Source of the DNA: a virus
Length of the DNA stretch: 28,305 bases
Direction: 5' to 3' (one strand)
Virus record (IMG/VR): IMGVR_UViG_3300022851_000086
Location: 1-28,305 of that record
Under the pieces are notes generated by a model. It was not told where the DNA came from and did no database searches. It saw only the letters and a program-made list of their open reading frames with translations. How positions within the stretch are numbered: the stretch's first letter is position 1; each line of letters begins with the position of its first letter. The position numbers and the translations under genes are program-made. Shown here one piece after another: positions 1,411 through 22,400 of this stretch.

Positions 1411-1685
1411 CGGCCCCCCGCCAGAACGGCCCGCACACGGTCCATATCCAGGTCAGGCTGCAGCAGCAGCCGGACGGCCTCTGACAGGGCGTCACGCTGC
1501 TCTGTGAGCGCGTCCCGCTCGTCCAGCGCGGCCTCATGGTCCTCATCCTGCCAGCGTCGCAACTCGTCCAGTTCGTCCCAGACCCACGCCAGAGACGGCC
1601 AGCGTTCCCGGTGCTGTGACGTGCTGTCCGTGTTCAGGCGGGCCACTGCGGCCAGGCTGTCAAATCCGTTACGGGGCATCTGCAT
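1407..1685 (-). CDS. Hypothetical coiled-coil protein, 92 aa
   Basis: A longer reading frame opens at 1739, but the ATG at 1685 is preceded by a strong GGAGGA ribosome-binding site about six bases upstream and sits in a TAATG junction with the stop of the HNH gene, so I place the start there. The middle and C-terminal part (WDELDELRRWQDEDHEA then LDERDALTEQRDALSEA) is a run of heptad-like charged and leucine residues typical of a short coiled coil, so it probably forms dimers or binds a partner. I do not recognise the family. It lies between an HNH endonuclease and a methylase gene and shares their operon. Confidence 0.65.
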   Translation of the reverse strand: MQMPRNGFDSLAAVARLNTDSTSQHRERWPSLAWVWDELDELRRWQDEDHEAALDERDALTEQRDALSEAVRLLLQPDLDMDRVRAVLAGGR

Positions 1686-2296
1686 TACGTTCCTCCGGTT
1701 GTGCAGTTTACGAAATCTAGCGGGTCGTGCCAGTAACATCCAACACAGGTTCCTCTATAGTCAGTAGACCCTTTTGAAACAGGGACATGAAACCCGAGTT
1801 GTGTCGCATCAAATCTGATGTTTGTGCTTTTGCACCGATTGCAATGCGTTCTTTTAGCGTCGTTCACTGCCTTGGACAGAGGTTGAAATTCGTCACAATT
1901 CTCCACGGGTTTGAAGTTGTGCTTTCTCCCGTCCTTATGATCCATTTCCAAGTTGTTGCTTATCGCCAAAACGACGCAAAGTTTGTTCTTGTGATAATCG
2001 TAGACTTCGGGGGCAATGGTTCCATCAAAAGACAGTTCAGCCCAGCCTGCGGTCGCTACAGAAATGATACTTCCTTGCGGCCCCTTTCGTTTTACCAGTT
2101 TGTATTTTTTTGCCAATGACCCATCGTCTCGCGCCCAAGCGCTGCCGTTTCCGAAAGAAGGGAGTCCGTGCAGATGAAATTCCGAAACATTCAACGGGTC
2201 ACTGTGCCCATGCTTGTCTGGTTGAACTGTTTTTTCAAACCTGTCGGCGTGACTACCTGTCTTGAATGTTATAGCCTTTGGGTTTTTATGAGCCAT
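1685..2296 (-). CDS. HNH (beta-beta-alpha metal) endonuclease with zinc-binding cysteines
   Basis: This is a 203-residue protein with a clear HNH nuclease core: NNLEMDHKDGRKHN (D119-H120) followed by PLSKAVNDAKRTH (N145, K148, H151). Two CxxC pairs, at C152/C155 and C184/C187 (CVGC), probably bind a structural zinc. The first 110 residues do not look like a common homing-endonuclease DNA-binding domain. The layout, with an N-terminal part, HNH and a C-terminal zinc ribbon, recalls HNH-type type II restriction enzymes; that comparison is from memory. Its start overlaps the 3' end of the methylase-fold gene by 11 bases, so the two are coupled, which supports but does not prove a restriction-modification-like pair. 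A free-standing phage HNH nuclease is the main alternative. The base composition is more AT-rich than in the neighbouring genes, a sign of transfer. Confidence 0.8.
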   Translation of the reverse strand: MAHKNPKAITFKTGSHADRFEKTVQPDKHGHSDPLNVSEFHLHGLPSFGNGSAWARDDGSLAKKYKLVKRKGPQGSIISVATAGWAELSFDGTIAPEVYDYHKNKLCVVLAISNNLEMDHKDGRKHNFKPVENCDEFQPLSKAVNDAKRTHCNRCKSTNIRFDATQLGFHVPVSKGSTDYRGTCVGCYWHDPLDFVNCTTGGT

Positions 2297-3266
2297 AACC
2301 GTATCCCTTCAAAGAGTCGAACATTATCTGCTGATCCAGAACGTCCACGCAGAAGTAACTAGAGCTGAACGTGATCTTGTTTTCGCTGTTGTCCTGGTTC
2401 ATGAATTTCATCCGTTCTTCGAACATCAAGAGTTGGAGGGGGATGTTTCGGAACACCTGTTTTGGTGCAGCGTCGTTCAGCCATGTGTTACTCATTATGA
2501 GCGCGAAAGGTTTGCCCAACTCGATGGCGCGTTCAAAGATGCCGCGTTTGTTTGTAAACGGGGGGTTTGATACCATCACATCCCAATCCAGAGGGGCGTG
2601 CGTGTAGAAGTCTTGCCCCTCGTTGATATGTGAACGAACTACGTTGAAACCCTCAGACTCCAACACTTTGACAAAATTACTGGTTGCCTCATCAAACGGA
2701 CACCATATCGTCTTTCCCTTGAATTTTTCCAAATGTGGCACCAACGCCCTCACGGCATATTCCGGCGTGTAGCATTCGTCGTTGTCACCGGCGTTGTAGA
2801 GCACCCCTGCATTGGCGCTGGATAGTTTGGCCCGGTCAGGTGGGATGATCTCAGGCACCACCGTAGGGTTGGACTTGTAGGCCCGCACAGCATCCTCGAC
2901 CTTTTGCATTGTGGGGCGCTCGTGCTGTTCCGTCACCTGCCCCCAGACGTGCACGGCTTCGGCGTCGGAAAGCCGGGTCAGAGGTCTGATTTGAGCCTCA
3001 TTCGATGGGAGGATTTTGTCCACAAAAGATCCGTTTTTGTGGACATTTTGTATTGCCTGAAAACGCTCTGCCGCTTCAATCATTTGGTAGGCACGAGACT
3101 TTTTCCAGCCCCATCGCTGATCTGCGTATTCCTCAAACGTGCCATATTTTTTCTTGTATAGCTTGTCGTCGCGTATCTCGCGCAGCAACAAACCGTTGTC
3201 ATACCACGCTTTGAGGACGTTGGTTTCGATCTGTTCTTCCACCTTGTTAAGGCTTCTCTTGGCCAT
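2286..3266 (-). CDS. Methyltransferase-fold protein with phage DNA-binding N-terminal domain
   Basis: Counted from the ATG at 3266 the protein has 326 residues. A TTG start at 3293 is possible, but the ATG has a good GGAAGGA site about six bases upstream. Residues 1-130 resemble a domain common in phage and plasmid proteins: GLLLREIRDDKLYKKKYGTF, then ILPSNEAQIRPLTRL. The C-terminal domain carries YTPEY (166-170), IWCPFD (187-192, in place of the usual motif I) and SNPPF (233-237, the NPPF motif of N6-adenine methylases). Proteins with this IWCPFD/SNPPF pattern are often annotated as DNA methylases or sugar-phosphate nucleotidyltransferases; the NPPF motif favours methylation of adenine in DNA. 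It opens the operon and overlaps the HNH endonuclease gene. The reading frame is AT-richer than most of the window. Confidence 0.75.
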   Translation of the reverse strand: MAKRSLNKVEEQIETNVLKAWYDNGLLLREIRDDKLYKKKYGTFEEYADQRWGWKKSRAYQMIEAAERFQAIQNVHKNGSFVDKILPSNEAQIRPLTRLSDAEAVHVWGQVTEQHERPTMQKVEDAVRAYKSNPTVVPEIIPPDRAKLSSANAGVLYNAGDNDECYTPEYAVRALVPHLEKFKGKTIWCPFDEATSNFVKVLESEGFNVVRSHINEGQDFYTHAPLDWDVMVSNPPFTNKRGIFERAIELGKPFALIMSNTWLNDAAPKQVFRNIPLQLLMFEERMKFMNQDNSENKITFSSSYFCVDVLDQQIMFDSLKGYGYGS

Positions 3267-3300
3267 TTCGTATCCTTCCAATGTTAACCGCAATGCTTAC

Positions 3301-3329
3301 ATTGTATGGTGCGGGTGTGCAAGCAAAAA
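3301..3329 (-). promoter_or_regulatory. Weak candidate promoter for the modification operon
   Basis: On the minus strand a good -10 box (TACAAT, 3306-3301) lies 17 bases after a poor -35 (TTTTTG, 3329-3324). It sits about 35 bases before the ATG at 3266. Only the -10 is convincing. Confidence 0.3.
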
Positions 3330-6754: not shown

Positions 6755-7760
6755 ACGCCTTGATAAACAGCGCAGCGGCTTGTGGCACGATTGCATTGCC
6801 ATACCCACGCAGCCGCATCACGCGTCGGGCTTCTTTGGTGCTTTGCGCAAGCGGGCTGGAAGCTGGCACGAAATCGCAGCCTTGCACCACGCCTCCGGGA
6901 AGCCTTGGAGCCACGCGCTGAACGCTGGATTTAACTGGCCGCCACTTTCCATCCCGGCAGAACAGCCAGTCAACATCGTCCCATCCGCCGTGATCCGTGC
7001 CGCTTGGGGATTGGCTGACAGCCACGCCACTCTGCCCAACAGCGCGTTCAACGGGACGTTGGTGCATTCCCTGCCGTCCTTGTGGTCCCTGGTCGTCGGC
7101 GTCGGCCAGCCGCTCAGATTGTAGCGTATCTGATCCTCCAGATTCCGAATGTCGTTTGTCTTCCACCTGTTCCCCCCAGCATCGCCCCGAGCCCTCGGAG
7201 TCATCCAGCCGGACGGCACCAAAGAATGTTCGTTGTCGGATGTGCGGCGCGCCGACGCCCGCAGCCGGTATATCTGACGCCCCAACGGCGTAACGTGCGG
7301 CTTCCAAACGGTGGAATAGATCGTCGAGCCAGGTCCATTCAGGTTCGCCTCCAACGCGCTTTGCAGACTTTCCGAACACAGCCGCGCTTGCGACCTGTTC
7401 GCCAAACAGCACAGGGGGGCGGCAAGCCCTGACCAGACTGATAAAATGGGGGGCAAGGTGTCGCGCATCGTCTTTTCCTTCCAATTTTCCGGCCGCGCTG
7501 AACGGCTGACAAGGCGGCGACCCGGTCCAGACCGGGCGCGTTGAGGGCCATCCCGCCAGCTTGAGCGCATAGGCCCACCCGGCAATCCCGCAAAAGAAAT
7601 GGCATTGCGTGAAGCCTTCCAGATCAGCTGGCTGCACATCAAGGATCGACCGGGAGTCGACCACGCCGTAGGGGATCAGCCCGTCAAACATCAACTGCCG
7701 GATCCACGCGCAGACCTGAGGGTCATTATCGTTGTAGTAAATGCTGGGCCGGGGCATCAT
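6726..7760 (-). CDS. dcm: DNA (cytosine-5)-methyltransferase
   Basis: The 344-residue protein methylates carbon 5 of cytosine in DNA using S-adenosylmethionine. Motif I is the variant FFCGIAGWAYAL (about 55-66). Motif IV with the catalytic cysteine is TGSPPCQPFS (PCQ at 83-85). The motif VI glutamate is in GEQV (120-123). APHIRQRTFF (171-180) is motif VIII, and GYGNAIVPQAAALF near the C-terminus is motif X. About 110 residues between motifs VIII and X form the target-recognition region, which sets the unknown site. The N-terminal 50 residues (IYYNDNDPQVCAWIRQLM) are the usual phage-type extension. Start ATGATG at 7760 overlaps the stop of the HD gene. The 3' end carries the promoter of the next gene. 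Confidence 0.93.
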   Translation of the reverse strand: MMPRPSIYYNDNDPQVCAWIRQLMFDGLIPYGVVDSRSILDVQPADLEGFTQCHFFCGIAGWAYALKLAGWPSTRPVWTGSPPCQPFSAAGKLEGKDDARHLAPHFISLVRACRPPVLFGEQVASAAVFGKSAKRVGGEPEWTWLDDLFHRLEAARYAVGASDIPAAGVGAPHIRQRTFFGAVRLDDSEGSGRCWGEQVEDKRHSESGGSDTLQSERLADADDQGPQGRQGMHQRPVERAVGQSGVAVSQSPSGTDHGGWDDVDWLFCRDGKWRPVKSSVQRVAPRLPGGVVQGCDFVPASSPLAQSTKEARRVMRLRGYGNAIVPQAAALFIKAFDKTVNNWQ

Positions 7761-8203
7761 AGCGTCACCACCACGCCCAGTGCCTCAGCCCGCACAAACA
7801 ACCATCGACGACACTCAGGCCAGCCGTCACTGTCCAGCGTATGCGGTGCGTGATGTTTGGCCCACATCCAGGCATCAAGCCTGTCGGCAAAGCGCAGACG
7901 CTCATATTCGTCCGGCGTCAATTCGGGCAGCCTCGGCCAAATCCGATCCAGCGCGGCCCGCTCTTGCTCGTGGATAACCGTTGCGCCCTTTGCCGGGGCT
8001 GGCACATCCCCGACCACGGATTCCCCGTCATCATGCACCAGCGCCCAGTGCAGCAGGGCCACGCTGGAGTCGGGCCACAGCTTGAGGATGATGCGCGCCA
8101 CCCGCCCGCCGTGTCCCGCCAGCGTGTCAACGGTCTGCGCCAGATCGGGGTTGGTATGCCAGCGTCGGACAAAGCTGGCCCGGAATTGTGTGTTGAGTGT
8201 CAT
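7757..8203 (-). CDS. HD-domain nucleotidase-like protein (YfbR-like)
   Basis: This 148-residue protein has the HD phosphohydrolase signature: RRWHTN (13-18), H31 in LAGHGGRVARI, H57-D58 with E61 in LVHDDGESVVGD, D66 in GDVPAPAK, and D107 in RFADRLDAW. The spacing and the GDxPxPxK-like stretch match YfbR-type 5'-deoxynucleotidases, which remove phosphate from deoxynucleoside monophosphates. Some phages use a related HD enzyme (DatZ) to deplete dATP when they replace adenine by 2-aminoadenine, but no PurZ-like gene is in this window. The gene sits between two DNA methylase genes and overlaps both, which suggests a role in the nucleotide pool. HD fold: confident. Exact substrate: unknown. Confidence 0.82.
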   Translation of the reverse strand: MTLNTQFRASFVRRWHTNPDLAQTVDTLAGHGGRVARIILKLWPDSSVALLHWALVHDDGESVVGDVPAPAKGATVIHEQERAALDRIWPRLPELTPDEYERLRFADRLDAWMWAKHHAPHTLDSDGWPECRRWLFVRAEALGVVVTL

Positions 8204-8982
8204 TGTGTCGCCTCTCTCATTTTGTTGGTTATTGCATCGGCCTGTGCTGTCCTAATGCGGGCTTGTGCGATGGTGAAATAATAGGGGTCGCGCTCAATTC
8301 CGATAAAGCGCCGCCCGGTGTTGGCCGCTGCAACGCCGGTTGTGCCTGATCCCATTGTGAAGTCTAGCACGACCTCGCCCGGATTGGTGTAGGTGCGGAT
8401 CAGGTATTCCATCAGCGCGACAGGTTTTTGGGTGGGGTGGACCTGAGTGTTAGCGTGGTGGACGTAACCCTCCAAAATCTGGCGCGGATACGCTGAACCT
8501 TTTCCCATTTCAACAGGTTTTCTAGACTTCCTGTCGGGGCTCACGTCACTGGATTTTGCGTAGGACTGAGGGCGAACGCGCAATTTACCTTCTTGAACGC
8601 CTTGAGGAAAATAAGGCATGTTTGCTTTTGCGCCGTTTGCGGTACTTCCTTCGCTGAAAACCGAAATTACCTCAATGTCTTTTAATGGCTTTAAACGCGC
8701 ATTTGTAAAACCTGACGGCTTGTTCTTTCGCCAGTAGAAATCATACTTGAACATTTCTAGCGCACTGCATCTTAGAATGCTTGAAAAAGGCTCTTGCCCA
8801 AAAATAGCAATCGCCCCGTTCTGCTTCACGATCCGCTTTAGCTGCTCCCACATAGGCTCAAACGGGATGACCGAATCCCACTTGCAAGCCGTCGTTCCGA
8901 ATGGTGGGTCGCAGATAACGGCATCAACCGACCCATCCGGTATGTCCCGCATCACGTCCAAGCAATCACCCAAGTGCAACAT
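8200..8982 (-). CDS. Site-specific DNA methyltransferase, beta-class N4/N6
   Basis: The 260-residue protein has the beta-class order of methylase motifs: ICDPPFGT with DPPF at 25-28 (motif IV, catalytic), then TQKPVAL (184-190), then LDFTMGSGTTGVAAA (motif I, about 206-220) and FIGIERD (motif II). It methylates the exocyclic amino group of adenine or cytosine in DNA; DPPF does not by itself separate the two. It lacks the ParB-like domain of the methylase at 1-1129. The start at 8982 lies 17 bases inside the 3' end of the SF2 helicase gene, and its stop overlaps the HD gene. The central part (about 80-180) should be the target recognition domain. Confidence 0.92.
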   Translation of the reverse strand: MLHLGDCLDVMRDIPDGSVDAVICDPPFGTTACKWDSVIPFEPMWEQLKRIVKQNGAIAIFGQEPFSSILRCSALEMFKYDFYWRKNKPSGFTNARLKPLKDIEVISVFSEGSTANGAKANMPYFPQGVQEGKLRVRPQSYAKSSDVSPDRKSRKPVEMGKGSAYPRQILEGYVHHANTQVHPTQKPVALMEYLIRTYTNPGEVVLDFTMGSGTTGVAAANTGRRFIGIERDPYYFTIAQARIRTAQADAITNKMREATQ

Positions 8983-16142: not shown

Positions 16143-16457
16143 ATGAAACGCATCAATGGACGTCACTACACTAAACCTGAGAATGTCAGTCTTTGGTCCT
16201 ACATCAAAAGCAAGATGCCCTACCTCAACGGAGAGGACATTGCTAACATAGCGGCTATTGTACTACTTACTGCAACACTGGTGTTCACGATTATGGGAAT
16301 GGTCATGGCTAGAGCTAGAAATCTGGACACCCACAGTGAAAACCTTTTACCACTCGCACATTGCATCTACGGGCCGATTGACTATCGACCCAGCGCATTC
16401 CACCACTACAGTCACACGCCGACGGTGCCGCGTTGCAGGCAGGAGCGGAGCACATGA
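16143..16457 (+). CDS. Small membrane protein, 104 aa
   Basis: The ATG has a GGGAG site and sits just behind a strong promoter box. The product has a basic N-terminus (KRINGRHYTK), one clear membrane helix at about residues 33-56 (ANIAAIVLLTATLVFTIMGM), then a polar tail of about 45 residues rich in His, Pro and Arg. With the basic side inside, the tail would face the periplasm, although a basic ARAR just after the helix makes the orientation uncertain. I do not recognise the family. Being the first gene of a separately promoted cluster of tiny genes suggests an early host-interaction role such as membrane takeover or superinfection exclusion; this is an inference. Base composition is less GC-rich in the first half. 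Confidence 0.65.
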   Translation: MKRINGRHYTKPENVSLWSYIKSKMPYLNGEDIANIAAIVLLTATLVFTIMGMVMARARNLDTHSENLLPLAHCIYGPIDYRPSAFHHYSHTPTVPRCRQERST

Positions 16458-21019: not shown

Positions 21020-21429
21020 CAGATTTTCACCTGCGCCGCATAAACAAAAATATCGTCAATCTGTTCCGGCGTGAAACCATCGCTGCCAAGCGCGTCAATT
21101 AGACCGTTTGTGCGCCGGATTTCCGTTGCATATTCCCAAGCGATAGCCGCTTTGGGGTCAGCATCCGCAATGGCCTGCACCGTGCCAATAAGGTCAAGTT
21201 GCCACAAGGTGACGCGGATTTGCGCGGGGCTGGCAACCATTGTCTCCCGTTTGGCGGCAAGGGCTTCGGCTTTGGTCGGGACGGGTGGCACGGTCAATTC
21301 CATGCCGCCAGCAATCGCCAACTGCACCCGCTGGTAGTCCTCATTTGCCGGGTCATTCGGCACGGACATAACCTGCCCACCGATTGTGACCTGATAACCG
21401 TTTGCGGTCTGTGTGATTTGCTCAATCAT
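21019..21429 (-). CDS. Tail-fibre-associated small protein, 136 aa (chaperone-like)
   Basis: The ATG at 21429 overlaps the stop of the tail-fibre gene (ATGA); a longer frame upstream runs through that gene and is rejected. The first half, MIEQITQTANGYQVTIGG and following, is strand-like. The second half (MVASPAQIRVTLWQLDLIG and following, to FTPEQIDDIFVYAAQVKI) is a helical domain shared with the protein at 22483-22767: both keep MVxSPxQ, an aromatic helix, a Trp-containing middle and a TxxQxDxxFxxAAQV end. Such proteins follow tail-fibre genes in many phages and may help assembly. The function is inferred only from context and from this pairing. Confidence 0.75.
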   Translation of the reverse strand: MIEQITQTANGYQVTIGGQVMSVPNDPANEDYQRVQLAIAGGMELTVPPVPTKAEALAAKRETMVASPAQIRVTLWQLDLIGTVQAIADADPKAAIAWEYATEIRRTNGLIDALGSDGFTPEQIDDIFVYAAQVKI

Positions 21430-22400
21430 GCTGTCAACTCCGATGTGGCTGAAAGAATGGCCGACTTCGATCTGGTAATAATACTCGTTCCGCTGGTCCA
21501 TTCCCAAATTGCATGGATACCGTTTGCAGGTTTCGCCGTTACAGAAGCTATGGCCGCGGCGTTCACAGAGGATTCCAATAGAACTGCAACGGTTGGGGCT
21601 GCCCTCATTGCAACGGGTAAAAACCAAGTGTGCCCAACGCTCGATGAACCCCCTAACACCCCATCGTGCCTAAATTCCGCATTGCAAATTTGGTAATACC
21701 TCTGGCATTTTATAAGTTCTGCGCCATAATCCATCCGCTCAAACGCAGTCGCAATAGTTCCCAATTCAATTTGCGCATCAGTATAAGTGCCACCCGTAAA
21801 CCGTACAGTAGCATTAGTGCTTGCGGTCAGGGTGAATGTCGCACCTTTTGCGCGCGAAACCCCGTTAACTGTAGCCGTTGCCGTGCCTGTCCAGTTGATA
21901 ACGTAGGTTCCGCCAACGATGTTTGCGCCCTCAATCACCTGCGAAACACCACCAGCCGGGGCAGTCATTGTGCGGCCCGCGTCATTACCTGAAAACGTCA
22001 GGTTTTGGCCGCTGGTGACGACAAACCAACGGTCAAGGGTGAATTGGTTTGCAACAGCCGTTGCAGTACCGCTGACGTAGGCCCGCTCATTGACGCGGCC
22101 CGATCCGTTGATGATTAGGTTGCGGCCTGAAAGTGGGGCAAATGCAACGGCAGTTCCTAAATAATTGACAATTAAAGATTTTCCACTTTGCGCCGAAATA
22201 TCCGGCAACGTGCCAGACAATGCCGTTGCTGCGACCTCCTCTAGCCGCGCCTGCACCCACGGCAAGGCAATTTGCAATTCAGAAACATTCGTCCCGCTTA
22301 GCCATGAAAGATAGGCGTCAACATTGTTGTTAAAGTCCGTATCCGATTGCCCCTTTGCAGGAAACGGCAGCGGAAAATCTGTTATAACTGGCGTGGTCAT
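21426..22400 (-). CDS. Tail fibre / receptor-binding protein 2, 324 aa
   Basis: The N-terminus (TTPVITDFPLPFPAKGQ, then FNNNVDAYLSWL) is related to that of the fibre at 22990-23898, probably the part that attaches to the tail. The middle and C-terminus are different: LIINGSGRVNERAYVSGT, a jelly-roll-like stretch with GGTYVINWTGTATATV (a carbohydrate-binding form), and FERMDYGAELIKCQRYYQIC, a motif I know from phage tail fibre proteins. The end is strand-rich. It should bind the host surface. It is coupled by ATGA to the 29-codon remnant before it and to the assembly-type protein after it. Confidence 0.82.
   Translation of the reverse strand: MTTPVITDFPLPFPAKGQSDTDFNNNVDAYLSWLSGTNVSELQIALPWVQARLEEVAATALSGTLPDISAQSGKSLIVNYLGTAVAFAPLSGRNLIINGSGRVNERAYVSGTATAVANQFTLDRWFVVTSGQNLTFSGNDAGRTMTAPAGGVSQVIEGANIVGGTYVINWTGTATATVNGVSRAKGATFTLTASTNATVRFTGGTYTDAQIELGTIATAFERMDYGAELIKCQRYYQICNAEFRHDGVLGGSSSVGHTWFLPVAMRAAPTVAVLLESSVNAAAIASVTAKPANGIHAIWEWTSGTSIITRSKSAILSATSELTA

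Follow-up and report, generated by a model that had tools for sequence, protein, structure and literature searches.

NlaIII is a type II restriction enzyme which cuts CATG and is blocked by modification. IceA1 has been described as a functional isoschizomer of NlaIII (PMC2816704), and among viruses the chlorovirus PBCV-1 is reported to encode CviAII, a restriction-modification (R-M) system for CATG with an N6-methyladenine (m6A) methyltransferase (PMC7248222). Here we analyse two overlapping genes in a stretch of 28,305 bases from a single record of a lake virus (IMG/VR IMGVR_UViG_3300022851_000086), called the window, which is taken to be tailed phage DNA because it carries primase, helicase, DNA polymerase, exonuclease, endolysin and tail genes. 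A first-pass annotation had proposed that the HNH endonuclease and the methyltransferase encoded by these genes are a possible phage R-M pair. Our analysis supports this proposal through the IceA family membership of the nuclease, the shared presence and absence of the two genes, purifying selection on both and the re-pairing of the same families in other phages, and we consider it likely, from these sequence comparisons, that the pair is a phage-borne type II R-M cassette. As in the NlaIII/IceA1 system, the nuclease belongs to PF05315 and has a methyltransferase beside it, but the window methyltransferase comes from another family and the location is a phage. CviAII is likewise an R-M system encoded by a virus with an m6A methyltransferase, though it belongs to an algal giant virus whereas the window cassette appears mobile and resides in a tailed bacteriophage.

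The HNH protein matches the IceA profile PF05315 from position 6 to 197 of 218 with a score of 107.2 bits, well over the curated cut-off of 24 (E=1.1e-30). It is composed of a winged-helix-like N-terminal part (residues about 6–89) and a C-terminal HNH part with E117/D119/H120, N145 and K148/R149. The two CxxC zinc pairs noticed in the first-pass annotation are C152/C155 and C184/C187, a four-cysteine zinc site, and the HNH core and zinc site are both conserved, with D119, H120, N145, K148, R149, C152, C155, C184 and C187 invariant in 26 aligned IceA rows. Outside one divergent cassette (L060), identity between the window nuclease and the IceA proteins aligned from bacteria and viruses is 25–37%. 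The ratio of nonsynonymous to synonymous substitution rates (dN/dS) is 0.06–0.18 in eight comparisons, indicating purifying selection, and the structure model of the nuclease has a predicted local distance difference test score (pLDDT) of 89.2. A tblastn search for nuclease relatives gave none at E<=0.01 in 50,697 phage records and one in plasmids, PADLOC and NCBIfam returned nothing above noise for the HNH protein, and a sequence search of solved structures gave no credible match for either the HNH protein or the methyltransferase. In contig L067 (positions 2237–2848) the nuclease gene is broken by a premature stop and the methyltransferase is intact; other contigs hold intact copies.

The methyltransferase carries IWCPFD at residues 187–192 and SNPPF at 233–237. 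The methylase fold with NPPF (234–237) noted in the first-pass annotation holds in the structure model: the best match of the catalytic domain is M.TaqI (2ih5), with Z 13.1, a root-mean-square deviation of 2.7 and 147 residues aligned, and the M.TaqI-like fold together with a motif of the form (N/D)PP(Y/F) is what the gamma class (M.TaqI-type N6-adenine methyltransferases) would show. Motif I, which the same annotation had called unusual, turned out to be a family signature, with W188, C189, P190, F191 and D192 invariant in 28 aligned family rows. Residues 70–314 match PHROG 799 (E=7.7e-36), and from residue about 150 on there are matches to proteins of Prochlorococcus, Thermus, Streptococcus, Fusobacterium and Campylobacter phages, among others. 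The PHROG 799/EcoRI-methylase-like phage methyltransferases share the catalytic domain with its CPFD...NPPF signature and are often labelled sugar-phosphate nucleotidyltransferase. Those aligned (outside L060) measure about 167–207 amino acids (aa) and have no N-terminal domain, whereas the window protein is fused to a 150-aa helical N-terminal domain and paired with a nuclease. The match to the EcoRI methylase family PF13651 stays below its cut-off (21.3 against 26.4 bits, E=2e-4) and extends over 44 residues only. The model suggests that the catalytic domain is a methyltransferase of the N6-adenine type; RNA adenine methyltransferases (KsgA, Erm) come close to M.TaqI in score (Z 12.9 and less), and the substrate is therefore not decided by the fold. 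The model match covers residues 21–227 of the M.TaqI chain and ends with its catalytic domain, with no C-terminal domain left over, and the window enzyme may do without a separate target-recognition domain. Purifying selection is seen here as well (dN/dS 0.13–0.38 in five comparisons), and two further contigs are identical to the window.

The winged-helix-like part of the nuclease raises the question of a type IV-like enzyme, in which the nuclease would be methylation-dependent, as are winged-helix-HNH enzymes cutting G6mATC DNA, and would attack modified host or phage DNA. Its model does match RepE and others at Z about 4 to 4.8, but many proteins have winged helices, and values of Z under 8 count as weak matches. 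With an active adenine methyltransferase next to it, a nuclease of this kind would put its own genome at risk, and IceA1 is an isoschizomer of NlaIII, which modification blocks. We regard this explanation as very improbable.

That the two genes form a pair is suggested by their distribution in related phages. Both are present in all 12 contigs able to show both, as well as in the window (L013 and L099 end at a contig edge), so that the pair is kept together in other genomes, as the first-pass annotation asked of it, with nuclease and methyltransferase side by side as in a type II R-M system. Absence is shared too. Our survey covered 40 loci with a relative of the window primase; among those spanning the end of the primase gene and the next gene, 22 contigs have neither cassette gene. 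The gap at these empty sites is 396–450 bp in 20 of the 22, 645 bp in L125 and 1012 bp in L104, and 21 of the 22 sequences fall into 16 clusters at 97%. Filled sites among the primase-relative loci are those of L003, L056 (the same as L095) and L059, plus the window. The other 15 loci comprise L119, L120 and L121, with the next gene, no pair and an unmatched primase end, seven that are cut off too soon, including L099, which retains the first 23 methyltransferase codons, and five distant primases without the following gene (L126–L130). Other small open reading frames (ORFs) lie between the primase gene and the next gene in two cassette-free relatives (L104:4384–4899 and L125:815–1084), marking this as a variable site; by eye, the one in L104 resembles a primase C-terminus.

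Several comparisons suggest that the two genes travel together from one related virus to another. Six contigs have a pair 91–98% identical to that of the window and an adjacent gene just 67–73% identical, while in L060 both genes are 62% identical to the window's and stand among different neighbours in a different phage context. The upstream edge (Table 1) is found in the window and eight close cassette contigs and also in the empty-site contigs L094 and L101, but not in L060. Beyond it, the window and these eight contigs show about six different contexts, those of the window, L003 and L056 being alike, those of L067 and L017 similar, and those of L059, L018, L011 and L099 each distinct. Of the 21 empty-site sequences compared, 15 have the downstream edge CAACCGGAGGAAC exactly, L094 and L107 differ from it by one base, L097, L110 and L108 have a diverged version, and L125 lacks it; the five close cassettes compared all have it. 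In L059 (6300–6560) the cassette is preceded by a copied start of the next gene, identical 54-bp repeats flank the cassette, and the original junction is still upstream; from this arrangement, we read L059 as a snapshot of insertion at a shifted site.

Table 1. Coordinates of the cassette features in the window
Feature	Position	Strand	Basis or remark
R, IceA/NlaIII-family HNH nuclease	1685..2296	-	ATG start at 2296, 203 aa
M, IWCPFD methyltransferase	2286..3266	-	ATG at 3266, 326 aa
M catalytic domain, residues 151-326, IWCPFD...SNPPF	2286..2816	-	PHROG 799 and M.TaqI model match
M N-terminal helical domain, residues 1-150, probable DNA-binding regulator	2817..3266	-	
R/M gene overlap, 11 bases, ATGGCTCATAA	2286..2296	-	ORF comparison
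Palindrome CAATGTAAGCATTG, candidate operator	3291..3304	-	just 5' of the methyltransferase
Cassette upstream edge, GCTTGCA	3318..3324	-	contig comparison
Cassette downstream edge, CAACCGGAGGAAC	1689..1701	-	also last HNH codons and ribosome-binding region of the next gene

The overlap between the two genes has exactly the length given in the first-pass annotation, and the start of the next downstream gene in turn overlaps the HNH stop (TAATG). The same annotation had taken both genes to be AT-richer than their neighbours, as if acquired together. Their GC contents (46.9% for the HNH gene, the lowest among 28 tabulated genes, and 50.5% for the methyltransferase gene) are indeed below those of the primase (60.1%) and ParB-methyltransferase (59.7%) genes, but several other window genes are also low in GC (8200–8982, 51.2%; 16143–16457, 49.8%; 21426–22400, 51.6%) and base composition alone therefore proves little. 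AT-richness is too weak as proof of acquisition, for which the empty sites provide the real evidence.

Empty sites, a shifted insertion and conserved edges are also how a homing element behaves, and it could be supposed that there is no pair: an orphan methyltransferase would protect phage DNA against restriction by the host, and the HNH protein would be a free-standing homing-type endonuclease adjacent to it by chance. The neighbours of IWCPFD genes in Javan472, FNU3, phiYS40, CAM-P21, morran9-1 and P-SSM2, which are not annotated as nucleases, would fit this. A free-standing homing endonuclease moves alone, whereas every cassette contig able to show both genes has the methyltransferase, and the joint presence or absence of the two genes is at odds with chance adjacency. 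The surroundings of IceA genes elsewhere and their repeated association with IWCPFD methyltransferases, described below, speak in the same direction, and we consider it unlikely that the two genes are unrelated.

Pattern scans and alignment gave 29 IceA loci in bacterial genomes and 29 in virus contigs, 13 of the latter being close kin of the window or L060 and 16 being others. A methyltransferase is located within 1.5 kb of the IceA gene in 27 of the 29 bacterial loci (24 by a strict motif script, L028 and L030 by motif, L039 by Pfam) and directly adjoins it in all 16 other viral loci (by motif in 13 and by Pfam in L072, whose ORFs recur in L073 and L075). The strict motif script alone found a methyltransferase in 31 of 45 IceA loci and missed several found by motif or Pfam. 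The bacterial exceptions are L027, with a C5 methyltransferase about 2.6 kb away, and L055, where the stretch begins inside the nuclease gene. Relatives of the HNH protein are thus far from always lacking a methylase, the finding which the first-pass annotation had named as fatal to a pair, and from these neighbourhoods we take IceA genes to be restriction genes. Partners at nine of the 29 bacterial loci include a C5 methyltransferase. A tandem pair of IceA genes is seen in L027 (980–2213), the first of which matches the profile in its C-terminal half only.

As PF01555 proteins are frequent partners of IceA in other loci, the cognate methyltransferase of the window nuclease might instead be the PF01555 gene at 8200–8982 or the ParB-methyltransferase at 2–1129. 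The product of 8200–8982 matches DPPY/SPPY methyltransferases of other IceA loci at 21–42% identity, although such matches are expected among PF01555 members. The IWCPFD gene is the one window methyltransferase that tracks the HNH gene: the ParB-methyltransferase of L017 is 44% and the CcrM-like protein of L059 59% identical to their window counterparts, against 96–97% for the HNH proteins, which makes a partner elsewhere in the window quite improbable.

The association of the two families is not limited to the window and its kin. A catalytic-domain scan yielded at least 385 relatives. The best 80 of these were retained, four being kin of the window, and the other 76 were examined; as only the closest relatives were kept, the fractions given here are not a population estimate. 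An IceA gene lies directly upstream of a solo IWCPFD methyltransferase in two of the 76 loci, L154 and L207, with the order reversed as compared to the window. That the same two families have come together again also argues against adjacency by chance. The nucleases of L154 and L207 form a separate IceA branch (support 100/99) in a tree in which several branches are long and placements unsure, and from which 11 rows (L050, L052, L054, L055, L073, L075, L076, L077, L079, L081 and L084; fragments, copies or near-copies) were left out.

In 48 of the 76 loci, including L140 and L163, the gene directly upstream of the IWCPFD methyltransferase encodes a PvuII-like protein of 163–204 aa, and the same holds for P-TIM68 (gp050, L085:1957–2502). 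The four members scanned all fall in phrog_35715, labelled as of unknown function. A profile built from 23 of the 48 proteins matches PvuII, with E=7.2e-8 for the single-chain dimer 3ksk, 3.5e-4 for 2pvi and 3.5e-4 to 1.1e-3 for monomers, and D57, E66 and K68 (D...ExK) are invariant in all 23 aligned proteins, which assigns them to the PvuII family by profile. PvuII is thus the closest solved relative of this other nuclease, with its D...ExK kept; the PvuII-like gene is not found in the window, and M.PvuII differs from the IWCPFD partner methyltransferase. In L165 and L168 a gene for 337 aa separates the PvuII-like gene from the methyltransferase, about 1 kb downstream, and the two need not therefore be adjacent.

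An exchange of nucleases can be seen by comparing L154 (2284–3510) with L163 (2413–3516). Their methyltransferases are 88% identical and their nucleases unrelated, IceA in L154 and PvuII-like in L163. The DNA before the nuclease gene is 87% identical over 1332 bases (85% over the last 88), the DNA after it is 80% identical over 1173 bases, methyltransferase included, and both nuclease genes open with the same eight codons, MMESNKSQ. The two loci differ elsewhere as well, L154 having about 200 extra bases upstream and the sequences parting again further downstream. Because an IceA or PvuII-like nuclease stands directly upstream in so many of the loci examined, the IWCPFD methyltransferase family, usually annotated alone, appears often to form two-gene R-M cassettes with exchangeable nucleases. 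Among the literature matches listed, searched by titles and abstract openings with subscription journals thinly covered, we found no IceA or PvuII-like nuclease paired with an IWCPFD phage methyltransferase. Candidates for further IceA relatives were discarded: the genes beside the FNU3 methyltransferase (L087) gave no match, the gene beside that of P-TIM68 (L085) is the PvuII-like one, and a generic HNH gene near L138 reaches only E=0.11 to the IceA profile.

Several observations weigh against a two-gene R-M cassette. Fold matches of the nuclease model to HNH and winged-helix structures are weak (best Z 5.2) and a Foldseek search with the model gave no match at E<=0.001, which leaves family membership as the basis for calling it a nuclease. 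The premature stop in L067 may be a tolerated loss, as in R-M decay, and is also compatible with a dispensable nuclease. In a Pfam scan of five PvuII-like members, two were below the PvuII cut-off and three had no match, and their assignment comes from the profile search. Neither nuclease is present in the stretch examined in 24 of the 76 IWCPFD loci (less than 450 bp upstream in L141 and L177), and P-SSM2 has no annotated nuclease beside its IWCPFD gene; orphan forms of the methyltransferase thus exist. Finally, CATG is mildly low in cassette-bearing phages (295 observed against 359 expected) as compared to cassette-free ones (873 against 903), a difference too weak to name CATG as the target from composition.

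The N-terminal domain of the methyltransferase (residues 1–150) is modelled as all-helical, with low confidence at residues 1–40, and matches weakly to PHROGs of unknown function and cyanobacterial plasmid proteins. It takes up 14 of the 16 methyltransferase substitutions against L059, 18 of 20 against L017 and 23 of 26 against L018, mostly at residues 55–98, while the nuclease and the catalytic domain are nearly fixed. This variability disfavours the N-terminal domain as the specificity determinant for methylation and makes a regulator the more plausible role, probably one that binds DNA at the cassette's own promoter. The palindrome CAATGTAAGCATTG, a candidate operator, overlaps a promoter-like stretch and is identical in seven of nine cassettes (the window and eight contigs), L017 and L011 having CGATG in place of CAATG, and L060 carries the similar AATGTATCGCATTG in the same position. 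M.SsoII is described as carrying an extra N-terminal domain with a regulatory role, which acts on a palindrome at its promoter (PMC3978073). The window protein resembles M.SsoII-type enzymes in having such a domain and a promoter palindrome, but M.SsoII is a C5 enzyme and in the window DNA binding and regulation are putative. The C5 methyltransferase of L027 (4783–6087) has an N-terminal helix-turn-helix (Pfam HTH_17) and offers a parallel to the fused domain of the window protein.

In the mechanism that we propose for the R-M cassette, the methyltransferase, being encoded by the upstream gene, would be made first and would methylate adenine on replicating phage DNA within the sites targeted by the IceA-family nuclease. 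The nuclease would be translated from the start inside the end of the methyltransferase gene and, following the IceA1/NlaIII precedent, would then cut unmethylated DNA carrying the site, with methylated phage genomes being spared. Repression of the cassette's promoter by the N-terminal domain would probably ensure that modification precedes restriction. The most likely use would be against co-infecting phages that lack the cassette, and recombination repair of the breaks would copy the cassette into them, resulting in a homing-like spread; degradation of host DNA would be a second use. More tentatively, it is possible that the IWCPFD methyltransferase, lacking a target-recognition domain, methylates adenine loosely and so protects against several unrelated nucleases, that the cutting enzyme is swappable (PvuII-like or IceA-like), and that competitors free of the cassette acquire it by copying once their DNA has been cut.

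A rival view, which concerns the use and not the kind of system and overlaps with the mechanism above, is that of a true R-M pair whose main job is the early degradation of host DNA. Chlorovirus virion-packaged enzymes may be used on host DNA. They offer a possible parallel, virion-packaged nucleases being mentioned in PMC7248222. Host degradation as the main function is in our view a minority possibility: presence is patchy among similar phages, cassette-free L125 sharing its sample code (3300022856) with cassette-bearing L057 and L059, and these features, along with the several phage backgrounds, fit phage-phage conflict better than a core function in taking over the host. Conflict between phages with homing-like spread is favoured because of this patchy presence in similar lake phages, the several backgrounds and the shifted insertion.

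If this is correct, a large phage methyltransferase family, annotated as lone or as nucleotidyltransferase, would in many phages be part of a two-gene nuclease cassette, and restriction would be a phage-carried weapon and not only a bacterial defence. Should loose methylation and exchangeable nucleases hold as well, a common and unrecognised phage-against-phage weapon would stand behind the label of orphan methyltransferase. The exchange between L154 and L163 poses the question of how one small methyltransferase protects against two unrelated nucleases, and because similar lake phages have the site either empty or filled, spread of the cassette could be tested in environmental time series.

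Elsewhere in the window there are three more methyltransferases, ParB-fused (2–1129), C5 (6726–7760) and CcrM-like (PF01555, 8200–8982), and an HD-domain protein (7757–8203). The window is also depleted about fourfold in GTAC (9 against 40 expected). The ratio is 0.26 in both cassette-bearing and cassette-free relatives, so that GTAC was rejected as the target and its depletion is a trait of the lineage; could host restriction be its cause?

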